Assembly (NCBI GenBank): GCA_947642555.1
Contig: CANRSX010000023.1
Span: 1-64,000 of the forward strand
DNA from: an uncultured Roseburia sp.
Lineage (GTDB): Bacteria; Bacillota; Clostridia; Lachnospirales; Lachnospiraceae
Direction: 5' to 3'
DNA: 64,000 bases
Of this stretch, positions 29,572 to 33,553 are shown piece after piece. Both the position numbers and the translations under genes were made by a program. The notes beneath the pieces were generated by a model. It had not been told where the DNA came from, ran no database searches, and saw only the letters and a program-made list of their open reading frames with translations. Numbering within the stretch: position 1 is the first letter of the stretch; the number at the start of each line of letters is the position of its first letter.

Positions 29572-30534
29572 TTACGAATCCTGACCGGGTGACGCGGCGC
29601 CCGGCGCGCACTGCGCCATGGCGCGCAGAGCCGAGTTTACGGTTTCGGACAGCAGGGCAAGCTGCCTGCCGGTCCCCTCATACGTTTCAGGCGACACGGC
29701 GGAAAGGTCGCTTTGGGCAAAGGTGCGCTCAATGGATCCGATCCAGGAGGGAATCGTATAGCGCAGGCTCTGCATTCCCGCATCCGGGTCGTAGGCAGGC
29801 ATCTCCTTGATCGCGGTTCTGATCGCGGGGGCGTCGGCCTTTTTTTCGGCGGAACGCTCTGCCGTTCGTTTTGCATGCGGACCGGGAGCGCTAAGATCCG
29901 ACCGGGTGAGCCTTCCCCTCTGACTGTCCGCGAGTCTGCGGGTATGATGCTTTAACTGTTCTTTTGACAGCTTTGCAAAGACGACTGCATTTTCATATGA
30001 GATTGCAATCCGCCCGTCAAGAATTCCGTTTGCGAGCTCCGGCTCGAGACTGCGGATGCGGTCAATGGCTGCGGCGAGCGTCCCGGCTTTGTAAACGGTG
30101 TGCATGGACATGCCGCAGGCTGCTCCGAGCCGCGCGCCGATCACGGCCCGCGGATGCGGGGAGGAAGGATCCCTGCGGGTGCGGTCGCGGTATGCGATAT
30201 TTTTTGCGGCGGTAAAAAATGTCCCGATCAGATACCGCCGGAACATGGCGGGAAGGAATTCTTTTTCCAGGTGCGCCTGACAGATGCAGCAGACGGCGTC
30301 CTCGCGTCCGGGAAAGCTCTGGACGGATACTTCAAATGGAATATCGTATTTCCTGCAAATGTCGTATCTGAGGTGCCCGTCGATGATCCGTCCGTTCCAC
30401 ACCAGAAGAGGGGTGAGACAGCCGTATGTCCGCAGCTGTTCCTCCAGCAGGGCATAATCCGCGGGGGGAAGCCCGGGGGAGAGATGCCTGAATTCCGTGT
30501 CGTTATACCGTGTCTGTTTTGTCTGTCTGTTCAT
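29572..30534 (-). CDS. ParB N-terminal domain protein
   Basis: A 320-residue protein. Residues 15-60 read LSPGLPPADYALLEEQLRTYG then CLTPLLVWNGRIIDGHLRYDICRKY, the ParB-N pattern (xPLxVWxxxIIDGHxRY) of ParB/RepB/Spo0J relatives. A helix-turn-helix-like segment lies at about 130-160 (RLGAACGMSMHTVYKAGTLAAAI). A charged linker and C-terminal helical region follow. It overlaps the upstream gene by 32 bp, so translation is coupled. It probably binds DNA. The absence of ParA argues against a partition role. Confidence 0.75.
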   Translation of the reverse strand: MNRQTKQTRYNDTEFRHLSPGLPPADYALLEEQLRTYGCLTPLLVWNGRIIDGHLRYDICRKYDIPFEVSVQSFPGREDAVCCICQAHLEKEFLPAMFRRYLIGTFFTAAKNIAYRDRTRRDPSSPHPRAVIGARLGAACGMSMHTVYKAGTLAAAIDRIRSLEPELANGILDGRIAISYENAVVFAKLSKEQLKHHTRRLADSQRGRLTRSDLSAPGPHAKRTAERSAEKKADAPAIRTAIKEMPAYDPDAGMQSLRYTIPSWIGSIERTFAQSDLSAVSPETYEGTGRQLALLSETVNSALRAMAQCAPGAASPGQDS

Positions 30535-31081
30535 GCGGTTCCTTTCCCCGGTGCAGGCCCTCTGTCAGCGTGAGGACGGTGTTTTCCTCAAAGGTCTGTA
30601 CCGGCAGGTTCTGGTGTCTGGCAGCCGGGACGCCGAACTGTGATTCCCATGAAGCGGGATAGCGCGGCGTCTGTCCGGGAGGGCCGGGGGCATAGCATTC
30701 CGGCGCGTTTAAGTCAAAGGCCAGGAGAACATCCGCGCCGTCGGTGACCTGTTTCCCCAGAAGCCGGTAGCGGAGGACAGGGTCCCATCCGAGCAGAGAA
30801 AAAAGCTTTGCAGAAAAGGCCGGACAGGGAATCTGGCGGGGGCGTCTTTTGCCGCTGCCGGCGGAACACCAGCGGAGCGCGTCTTTATCTTCCGGAAGGC
30901 TTTTGCGCAGCAGCAGCTTCTTTTTCTGCGGGTGGATCAGAAACTGGATACAGGCGGTCTCTGGCCACAGGTTCAGACAGACCATATTGACGTAAACCCG
31001 GTTTTTGTAAAAGGTCAGAGACGGCTCGTTCGTGTGGGCAAAAAATTCGCCGTGCACCACCTCATACCCGTCCCCGGTCAT
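30503..31081 (-). CDS. Small protein sharing the recombinase tail domain
   Basis: A 192-residue protein of no named family that I recognise. It matches the C-terminal region of the recombinase encoded immediately upstream in several blocks: FLIHPQKKKLLLR against LLIHPDRLSFAVR; FSLLGWDPVLRYRLLGKQ against FSLCRWDPALTYRITGTL; LLAFDLNAP against LLFDLHNAH; and ASWESQFG against SVWESRRS. Its start overlaps the recombinase stop (ATGA type), so the two are co-translated. It may be an accessory subunit that joins the recombinase synaptic complex. Confidence 0.6.
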   Translation of the reverse strand: MTGDGYEVVHGEFFAHTNEPSLTFYKNRVYVNMVCLNLWPETACIQFLIHPQKKKLLLRKSLPEDKDALRWCSAGSGKRRPRQIPCPAFSAKLFSLLGWDPVLRYRLLGKQVTDGADVLLAFDLNAPECYAPGPPGQTPRYPASWESQFGVPAARHQNLPVQTFEENTVLTLTEGLHRGKEPHEQTDKTDTV

Positions 31082-33015
31082 GGCGTATCCTTTCGCAGCT
31101 CCGCAAGCAGCGCGAGAATCTGCCTTCTGAGCTCTCTGCGGGTGCTGACGCCAAAGGAGGGGTCGTGGCGGCTCCCGGCGCTGCGCCGGCTCTCCCAGAC
31201 AGAGGAAACAAGCGTCTGCTGCCGGTACCTGCCATCGTAGTACGCTTCGCCGAATGCAGCGGGATGGGCGTTATGCAGGTCAAACAGCAGGAATTCTTCG
31301 TTTCCTTTGCGAAAAAGCGTGCCTGTGATGCGGTATGTGAGAGCAGGATCCCAGCGGCAGAGGGAGAAGAGTACCGGCAGAAACGCCCTGCCGCCGATCG
31401 GACGCGGGCGAATGACGGATCGACAGATGTCGCTGCCGGGCGGATCAGTTTGTCTGTTAGCGTTATCGCCGGACGGGGCATTCTCTCTGCTGGCGTCACC
31501 GTCCTGTACACTCGCCCAGCGAACCGCTTCCCGGCGCGCGGCGGGGCAGGGCCGGACGGCGAAGGAGAGCCGGTCCGGGTGAATCAGAAGCTCTGCGTGC
31601 GACGCGGACCGGAAAAAACTGCGCACACTGACGGCGTTAAAGCGCAGGGAGCCGGACGAGAAGACGACGGCAGGCTGATCCGCCATGTCAAACAGGCGCG
31701 CGCTTACGGTCTCGTAGCCGCGCAGGTCAAAGGAGCCTGCGGGCGCTGTCACACAGGGCGCAGCCGGATACAGCGCAGCCGCAGTGGCCGGATCCGGACG
31801 CGCGGTATCTGCCGTGCCGGGCGCAGTGGCCGGATCCGGACGCGCGGTATCTGCCGTGCCGGGCGCAGTGGCCGGATGCGCATGGGCGCTTCGGGAAGCG
31901 AGACGGTAATCATCCGCGGTAAAGCCGGCCCATCTCGGATTGACCAGGACATACCCGTCAAAGACGCCGCCGGATACCGCCATCGGATGGGGCAGAAAAT
32001 TTCTGCCGCCGTAACGGGCGTTGCTGATCTGCTGCTGCGCGGCGATAAAATCCCCCCTGGAAATGATGGCGGCATGATGATTTTTCTGAAGATACTGATT
32101 GCGGTCAAACCGGTTCTTTTTTGAACGGTGGTCCAGATAGTTTGGCGTCCATGTTTTTCGCGCGAGCACGTCCCCGCAGTGTCGCTCATTCTGTAGGACG
32201 TTTAAGACGGAATGCTCCGACCAGCAGGAGACGCCTTTTTTGGTCGGACGGTTCAGACGTTCTAACAGGGCGGCGATCTTCCGGCAGCTGTGCCCGTACA
32301 GATATAAGGAAAAAATAAACCGCACGGTTTTAGCCTCCTCCTCGTTGACGATCAGGTTTCCGTCCGCGTCCTGATCATAGCCGAGCAGCGGCGGGGTCAG
32401 AAAGATGCCGCGCTTAAACCGCATCTCGATGGAGGCGTTCATGATCTCGCTTTTGTTGTGACTTTCCTCCTGCGCAAGCGTGGAGAGAAAGGACAGGCTC
32501 ATCTCACTGTCAGGATTTAAGGTGAAAATATTTTCCGTCTCAAAAAACACGCCGACCGGCGGCTTTAATTCCTTCAGCTCGCGGACAACGCGGATACAGT
32601 CGACGACATTGCGCGCGAACCGGGAAACGCTTTTCGTCACGATCAGATCCAGCTTTCCGTCCCGGCAGTCCGCGATCATCCGCAGAAACGCGTCCCGGTG
32701 CTGTAAGGAGGTGCCGGATATCCCTTCGTCGGCATAGATTTCCGCCAGCCGCCATCCCGCGTGGCGCTGCACGAGATCCTGATAATGGTTCCGCTGAAGC
32801 TCATAGGAGGAGGTCTGACGCGGATCATCCGTGGAGACGCGCGCGTATACGCCGACCCGTTTTTCGCGGAGACTGCCGTCAGGGTGATCTTTTGCGCGGG
32901 CGGGGATGACATCGAGAAGCGCGGTATCAATGCCGCGGTATCTGCTGCGGATCCGCTCTTTTTTTGCCGCGGTATCAAAACTCTGTTCTTTGCACTCTCT
33001 CATAAGCATCTCCAT
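31078..33015 (-). CDS. Large serine recombinase with unusual C-terminal extension
   Basis: A 645-residue protein. The resolvase domain begins VGVYARVSTDD with the catalytic serine at about residue 61, and continues with DEGISGTSLQHR and VTKSVSRFARN. A recombinase DNA-binding domain follows (GYDQDADGNLIVNEEEAKTV..., ERLNRPTKKGVS, NERHCGDVLARKT). Instead of the usual zinc ribbon it has a VLVNPRWAGFTADDYRLAS segment, an Ala/Pro-rich linker with tandem repeats, and a tail domain shared with the next gene. Starts at 33015 or 33003 are both plausible. It heads the cassette. It may act on DNA inversion or excision; no att sites could be recognised by eye. Confidence 0.85.
   Translation of the reverse strand: MEMLMRECKEQSFDTAAKKERIRSRYRGIDTALLDVIPARAKDHPDGSLREKRVGVYARVSTDDPRQTSSYELQRNHYQDLVQRHAGWRLAEIYADEGISGTSLQHRDAFLRMIADCRDGKLDLIVTKSVSRFARNVVDCIRVVRELKELKPPVGVFFETENIFTLNPDSEMSLSFLSTLAQEESHNKSEIMNASIEMRFKRGIFLTPPLLGYDQDADGNLIVNEEEAKTVRFIFSLYLYGHSCRKIAALLERLNRPTKKGVSCWSEHSVLNVLQNERHCGDVLARKTWTPNYLDHRSKKNRFDRNQYLQKNHHAAIISRGDFIAAQQQISNARYGGRNFLPHPMAVSGGVFDGYVLVNPRWAGFTADDYRLASRSAHAHPATAPGTADTARPDPATAPGTADTARPDPATAAALYPAAPCVTAPAGSFDLRGYETVSARLFDMADQPAVVFSSGSLRFNAVSVRSFFRSASHAELLIHPDRLSFAVRPCPAARREAVRWASVQDGDASRENAPSGDNANRQTDPPGSDICRSVIRPRPIGGRAFLPVLFSLCRWDPALTYRITGTLFRKGNEEFLLFDLHNAHPAAFGEAYYDGRYRQQTLVSSVWESRRSAGSRHDPSFGVSTRRELRRQILALLAELRKDTP
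31781..31877 (-). repeat. Two perfect 42-bp tandem repeats plus a 13-bp partial copy in the recombinase gene
   Basis: GCAGTGGCCGGATCCGGACG plus 22 further bases occurs at 31781-31822 and 31823-31864, and the first 13 bases recur at 31865-31877. They encode the 14-residue linker repeat ATAPGTADTARPDP. Perfect identity suggests a recent slippage expansion. Confidence 0.9.
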
Positions 33016-33193: not shown

Positions 33194-33553
33194 ATGGGGG
33201 TAAATTTTGAACTGGTGGGAAAACGGATCAGGGAGGTGCGGACATCCAGACGGGTATCGCAGCAGGAGCTGGCGGAGTCGGCGGAGCTCTCGGCCGCGTA
33301 TATCAGCAGGATTGAGCGCGCGAGGAAGAAGACCAGCTTAGAATCGCTGGTAAAGATCGCGAATGTGCTGGGGGTTACGGTGGACGAGCTGCTCTGCGGC
33401 AACCAGATGTATGATCCGGCGGAATATCAGACTGATATGGATCTGGAGCTGGCGGACTGCAGCCACGTGGAAAAGCGGATCCTCTATGAGGTGGTGCGCT
33501 CGGTCAAGCGGATTATCCGGGAAAACAGCGGGCAGGACGGACGAAAGTCATAA
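33194..33553 (+). CDS. XRE-family HTH transcriptional regulator
   Basis: A 119-residue protein. Residues 6-65 form a Cro/C1-type helix-turn-helix (GKRIREVRTSRRVSQQELAE, ELSAAYISRIERARKKTSLESLVKIANVLGVTVDELL). The remaining 50 residues are an acidic then basic helix that could dimerise. AAAGGAGGAG precedes the ATG. It is transcribed divergently from the recombinase cassette across 178 bp, the usual position for its repressor, although co-expression with the downstream rhamnosidase gene is also possible. Confidence 0.88.
   Translation: MGVNFELVGKRIREVRTSRRVSQQELAESAELSAAYISRIERARKKTSLESLVKIANVLGVTVDELLCGNQMYDPAEYQTDMDLELADCSHVEKRILYEVVRSVKRIIRENSGQDGRKS

Follow-up and report, generated by a model that had tools for sequence, protein, structure and literature searches.

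Why should a large serine recombinase be encoded next to a free copy of its own C-terminal domain? The question is raised by a 64,000-nt stretch of DNA from an uncultured Roseburia sp. (contig CANRSX010000023.1; hereafter the window, meaning the whole stretch, to which coordinates refer unless a locus identifier beginning with L is given). Its minus strand carries four tightly packed genes for a recombinase, a stand-alone tail protein (tail A) and two ParB-like proteins (ParB1 and ParB2), with a regulator gene divergent from them (table 1). A sequence-only reading had placed the recombinase and the 192-aa tail A at these same positions, and had taken the smaller protein for a duplicate of the recombinase C-terminus and a possible specificity or synapsis subunit. 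We confirm the observation and find partial support for the interpretation: sequence comparison identifies tail A as a genuine paralogue of the recombinase C-terminus, and the window locus belongs, as an orphan copy, to a conserved module of mobile elements.

Homology of the fused and free tails

Comparison of the recombinase C-terminus with the 192-aa protein by BLASTP gave 59.7 bits (E=1e-15). Profile–profile comparison, the check that the sequence-only reading had named beforehand, was clearly significant: tail A and the recombinase tail matched with a probability of 100 and E=1.6e-45 (22 and 20 sequences), and with E=1.9e-47 when approximately 100 sequences per family were used. Both regions were modelled with AlphaFold2 (AF2) from 94 and 85 aligned relatives, at mean predicted local distance difference test scores (pLDDT) of 81.9 and 84.0; in tail A, most of residues 20-130 scored >90. 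The models, which were not superposed, have a common element order, E-E-H-E-E ... H-E-E (E, strand; H, helix), formed by residues 21-25, 28-31, 33-38, 44-50, 55-61, 87-97, 104-114 and 117-123 of tail A and 449-452, 456-459, 461-468, 473-479, 484-489, 546-553, 561-570 and 573-579 of the recombinase. On the basis of homology and this matching order, fused and free tails are predicted to have the same fold. Three of the four ordered sequence blocks originally cited as shared do lie at homologous positions. The fourth (WESxxG) is probably a coincidence, since the family alignments pair P-x-x-W-x-x-x-FG of tail A with a different recombinase element, 'P..W...FG', which reads PAAFG in the window (residues 585-589), and not with the later VWES.

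Relatives of the locus encode a third, minimal copy of approximately 125 aa, tail C, which profiles connect with both tail A (6e-18) and the recombinase tail (1e-19). It is absent from the window and from L036, L039, L090 and L106; its loss in the window's genus made it invisible to a reader of this sequence. All three copies have basic cores (median net charge +4 to +6 over approximately 125 residues), which is compatible with DNA contact, as weak evidence.

In a maximum-likelihood tree, the 36 recombinase tails and the 33 copies of tail C each fall on one side of a well-supported branch; the 36 tail A sequences require at most one extra change, and sub-clades recur in parallel in all three lineages. 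This pattern indicates that the three copies arose before the module spread, and they are ancient separate lineages that have been inherited together; the proposal that the stand-alone protein was duplicated from its present neighbour is thus not upheld. The tail copies are under purifying selection, with ratios of non-synonymous to synonymous substitution (dN/dS) mostly of 0.03-0.16. For tail A the range was 0.03-0.12 in phage and element pairs with measurable dS, and the recombinase was similar. Within the window's genus, the pair L038/L039 gave 0.30 for tail A, 0.22 for the recombinase and 0.05 for ParB2. Among recombinase tails, that of the window sits on the longest branch (1.88), and the window's chromosomal lineage may be decaying or reused. 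In a sister species an in-frame stop splits the recombinase open reading frame (ORF; L038:8414-10255), with the downstream genes still open.

The tail domain is undescribed in the libraries searched: Pfam, NCBIfam and PHROG gave no convincing match, and the PDB gave none in either sequence or fold. An AbrB/MazE swapped-hairpin fold (PF04014), prompted by the order of strands and helices, was ruled out by profile comparison, as hhalign of tail A, tail C and the recombinase tail against 30 AbrB/MazE sequences gave E-values of 0.09-0.19 and probabilities <1%. The DnaN sliding clamp, which provided the top Foldseek matches in the PDB, was likewise rejected (TM approx. 0.13, rmsd approx. 16 Å, none below E 0.001). 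Foldseek did relate the stand-alone tail to two small, uncharacterized proteins, Gp105 of Lactococcus phage KSY1 and a protein of Bacillus phage Mgbh1 (probability 1.00; TM on target 0.64 and 0.62). Small free relatives of the domain (approx. 110-140 aa) also occur with no recombinase close by (L222:1351-1743, L223:1447-1782, L235, L236, L249, L357 and L358). The existence of these lone homologues marks the domain as a more general small-protein fold, recruited by the tailed recombinase group.

The catalytic half and the missing zinc ribbon

In large serine recombinases, the zinc ribbon and a coiled-coil hairpin grip the outer attachment (att) half-site and control synapsis. Pfam found only two domains in the window recombinase, Resolvase (PF00239, residues 56-203, 1.8e-26) and Recombinase (PF07508, residues 225-331, 5.2e-20), both expected of a large serine recombinase; Zn_ribbon_recom was not matched. 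Catalytic Ser61 lies within YARVST and Arg132/Arg135 within SRFARN; Y57, R59, S61, R132 and R135 are invariant across 85 relatives, and the catalytic residues of the window enzyme are intact. A Foldseek search of the PDB aligned approximately 320-330 columns with SPbeta integrase complexes (SprA/YokA, 9dxh).

The lack of a zinc ribbon, already suspected from the window, extends to the family. No CxxC occurs downstream of the recombinase domain in 168/174 relatives, a motif present at least once in 131/137 conventional recombinases of the neighbourhood. Instead, the tailed family has a conserved xxGxLKGFVxINPRWAGFxxxDY element at this position. The AF2 model likewise has no zinc ribbon at residues approx. 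340-376, and paired long helices of a coiled-coil hairpin were not seen in AF2 residues 334-448, a stretch modelled partly with low confidence. Without a zinc ribbon, the enzyme is a divergent variant and not a canonical large serine recombinase, carrying a compact α/β tail domain in place of the zinc ribbon and coiled coil. The window copy has a specific insertion in its tail at approximately residues 505-533. The linker between recombinase domain and tail (31770-31880) contains a direct repeat, ATAPGTADTARPDP, in two copies plus a partial one, that is absent from aligned relatives.

The module in Clostridia, phages and mobile elements

Collections of genomes, viruses, phages and plasmids were scanned and yielded approximately 200 loci. 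Besides Clostridia, the carriers include 'Ca. Heliusvirales' phages and further mobile elements; the query alignment divided into two clades. From the regulator onwards, the genes run: optional dead resolvase domain, recombinase, tails A and C, then ParB1 and ParB2, with an HTH_3-type regulator at the equivalent place in most relatives. The ParB-like genes thus belong to the unit, which the sequence-only reading had overlooked, as it had the dead resolvase domain of some relatives. Among 103 non-redundant loci with sufficient downstream sequence, tail A (present by construction), tail C, ParB1 and ParB2 were found in 103, 98, 97 and 98, respectively. A less biased search of 393 genomes with the recombinase tail alone recovered 13 tailed recombinases, 11 of which have tail A within 1 kb. 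The adjacency and translational coupling claimed for the window are general: the tail A gene, taken from its first start codon, begins ≤30 bp from the recombinase stop or overlaps it in 125/125 non-redundant loci. Gut Clostridia and their phages commonly carry the module, its proteins being annotated there as hypothetical, and we found nothing in the literature describing it.

Table 1. Features of the tailed-recombinase module in the window and, where a locus identifier is given, in related loci.
Feature	Position	Strand	Basis
Large serine recombinase, 645 aa	31078..33015	-	Pfam Resolvase and Recombinase domains
Stand-alone tail protein A (P0002), 192 aa; core residues 5-130, C-terminus disordered	30503..31081	-	BLASTP, profiles, AF2
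ATGA overlap of recombinase stop codon and tail A start codon	31078..31081	-	sequence
ParB-like protein 1, 320 aa; shares 32 bp with tail A	29572..30534	-	weak PHROG ParB/methyltransferase N-terminal matches
ParB-like protein 2 (DUF6551), 275 aa	28728..29555	-	PF20188 1.9e-26; phrog_1033 ParB-like 5.1e-11
Cro/CI-type HTH regulator, 119 aa, divergent	33194..33553	+	HTH_3 2.2e-14
Fused tail domain, recombinase residues approx. 423-584	31264..31749	-	profile match 1.4e-45; confident AF2 fold
Zinc-less remnant at zinc-ribbon position (LPHPMAVSGGVFDGYVLVNPRWAGFTADDY, residues approx. 340-376)	31888..31998	-	no Zn_ribbon_recom match
Stand-alone resolvase-like domain	L018:1072-1698, L173:5357-5998, L178:1264-1875		just upstream of tailed recombinase

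The module is all that the window has in common with the Ca. Heliusvirales phages. No phage structural or replication core genes were found around it, so that it does not qualify as a Ca. Heliusvirales prophage, and cellular-type ORFs at 27.8-28.6 kb and 33.6-35.8 kb border it directly, which places it outside any recognizable prophage. PADLOC returned no defence match apart from generic HTH models. A relative of ParB1 in L032 matched phrog_4715, a ParB-like partition protein, at 5.4e-8.

Variant architectures were also found. A stand-alone resolvase-like domain of approximately 200 aa precedes the recombinase in 21/114 loci with upstream sequence. The aligned domains have lost the catalytic serine (YARVST to YIRYFN) and the SRFARN arginines, and would represent another, catalytically dead, trans-acting piece of recombinase. 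L238 is naturally split: a 403-aa zinc-less recombinase overlaps a separate gene for a 149-aa tail protein. Its counterpart L237 has these parts fused in one recombinase and lacks a second tail copy. The split form of L238 fits a partnership of recombinase and tail protein. In the second module clade (L020-L029, L123-L137), an AAA_25 (KaiC/RepA-like) ATPase lies upstream of the recombinase (e.g. L022:5071-6063, L028:5049-6044), and no ParB-like genes were detected.

The carriers of the module are diverse. In Heliusvirales phages (L030, L033, L054, L061, L070, L071 and others), a further pair of serine recombinases, of the conventional zinc-ribbon type, lies convergent to it; two or three further serine recombinases occur in 22/69 non-redundant loci with 8 kb of downstream sequence. 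An element of 19.6-21.8 kb (L315-L322; G776:C49, G777:C122, G778:C12) also carries the module, with three tyrosine recombinases, DUF6262, TnpV and restriction-modification cargo (MmeI-type in L321). It splits host cpaF, the Tad pilus ATPase gene, at DMLQ/A-NTGHDG in Coprococcus comes, Blautia luti and Bilifractor porci, and its ends, CATATAAA and TTTATATG, are inverted repeats. Recent transfer is suggested by the 99.3% identity, across the 11.6 kb compared, between the copies of C. comes MSK.16.63 and B. luti MSK.16.34. One end of the element lies close to ParB2, which had spoken for the tailed recombinase as its sole integrase; we dropped this idea because three tyrosine recombinases are present. 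In several hosts the module stands alone between chromosomal genes. In L055/L056 and L059/L061, similarity breaks off close to where the regulator begins and close to where ParB2 ends, with no common terminal sequence to mark a fixed module end. Empty-site searches turned up nothing syntenic for the window module or its sister orphan modules, and no att pair or empty site could be assigned to the tailed recombinase.

Possible roles of the free tails and known systems

The anatomy of the module is clear and conserved; its mechanism is uncertain. A role as partner subunit is the most economical idea for tail A. As we picture it, and we rate the chances as even, tails in cis and in trans would assemble with the zinc-less recombinase into one hetero-oligomeric synaptic complex. 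The free copies would bind the recombinase tail and/or flanking DNA and would decide the pairing of sites or its direction, a task that usually falls to a recombination directionality factor (RDF) together with the zinc-ribbon domain and its coiled coil. That tails and recombinase associate physically, that they act in synapsis or specificity, and on what DNA, are all inferences. Several observations weigh against this proposal. The complete elements examined carry other recombinases as well (the zinc-ribbon pair in Heliusvirales, the tyrosine trio in the cpaF element). Two of the 13 tailed recombinases have no tail A within approximately 1.2 kb. Lone tail-domain proteins without a recombinase within approximately 1.5 kb mean that the domain may serve functions unrelated to recombination. 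The window copy itself has lost tail C and carries an unusually divergent recombinase tail. The split form, the dead resolvase domain, the basic cores and the ParB-like matches fit a sharing of C-terminal functions among polypeptides. A bolder version, in our view rather unlikely, is a dissected multi-subunit recombinase, in which an active zinc-less enzyme, trans-acting tails A and C and, in some lineages, a dead resolvase domain would be gated by ParB-like NTP switches; subunit composition, and not a coiled coil plus RDF, would then set synapsis and direction.

The basic cores also suit an explanation in which tails A and C bind DNA but work outside the recombinase, either as accessory or directionality factors at att-flanking sequence or by regulating transcription of the module, with the shared domain serving sequence recognition. 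Lone tail homologues without recombinases and the co-encoded regulator and ParB-like proteins point the same way; constant translational coupling and the split and fused pair L238/L237, however, indicate the recombinase as the partner, and the look-alike AbrB DNA-binding fold is not significant; we regard this explanation as doubtful. Alternatively, the module could be a maintenance unit, whose recombinase resolves multimers, whose ParB-like proteins aid segregation of an extrachromosomal form of phage or element or switch its expression, and whose tails are architectural factors of the resolution site, integration being left to other recombinases. Separate integrase-type genes do exist (the zinc-ribbon serine pairs, and the three tyrosine recombinases of the 19.6-kb cpaF element), both ParB1 and ParB2 have a ParB-like fold, and DUF6551 fusions bind CTP or ATP (PMC12704722), but multimer resolution has no obvious use where modules stand alone between chromosomal genes, and we consider a maintenance role unlikely. 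A further idea, that tail A is the non-functional remnant of a second, broken recombinase, is very improbable. The module of the window's genus, which looks partly decayed from its loss of tail C, the L038 stop and the raised dN/dS of tail A and recombinase, could give that impression; low dN/dS elsewhere, near-universal presence in modules and a deep separate lineage argue against it, and for the family it is largely refuted.

The zinc-ribbon domain and its coiled coil are credited with most of the control that large serine recombinases have over partner site and direction. A widespread group with neither, and with a replacement domain encoded two or three times, would be a natural experiment on how site and direction are chosen, and a possible source of recombination tools with a specificity subunit apart from the catalytic one. 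With SPbeta SprA/YokA, phiC31, TP901-1, TnpX and Ccr, the tailed enzymes share the Resolvase and recombinase domains and the catalytic residues; unlike them, they carry a new tail in place of the zinc ribbon and coiled-coil hairpin, and free tail copies lie in the operon. The likeness to the KSY1 Gp105 and Mgbh1 proteins concerns predicted fold. ParB2 belongs with the phage proteins of DUF6551/ParB-CTPase fold, and the account of DUF6551 fusions (PMC12704722) mentions neither a recombinase nor an integrase.

Two further systems involve small or paired recombinase partners. Like the RDFs SPbeta SprB/YotN and phiC31 gp3, tail A is small, encoded with a serine recombinase and expected to act on it. 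To our knowledge, no known RDF is a paralogue of the C-terminal domain of its own integrase, whereas tail A is one. CcrA and CcrB of SCC elements likewise place two recombinase-derived proteins side by side, and the CcrB model scored best on the N-terminal half of the window recombinase. Both Ccr proteins are full recombinases, whereas tail A is without the catalytic and recombinase domains.

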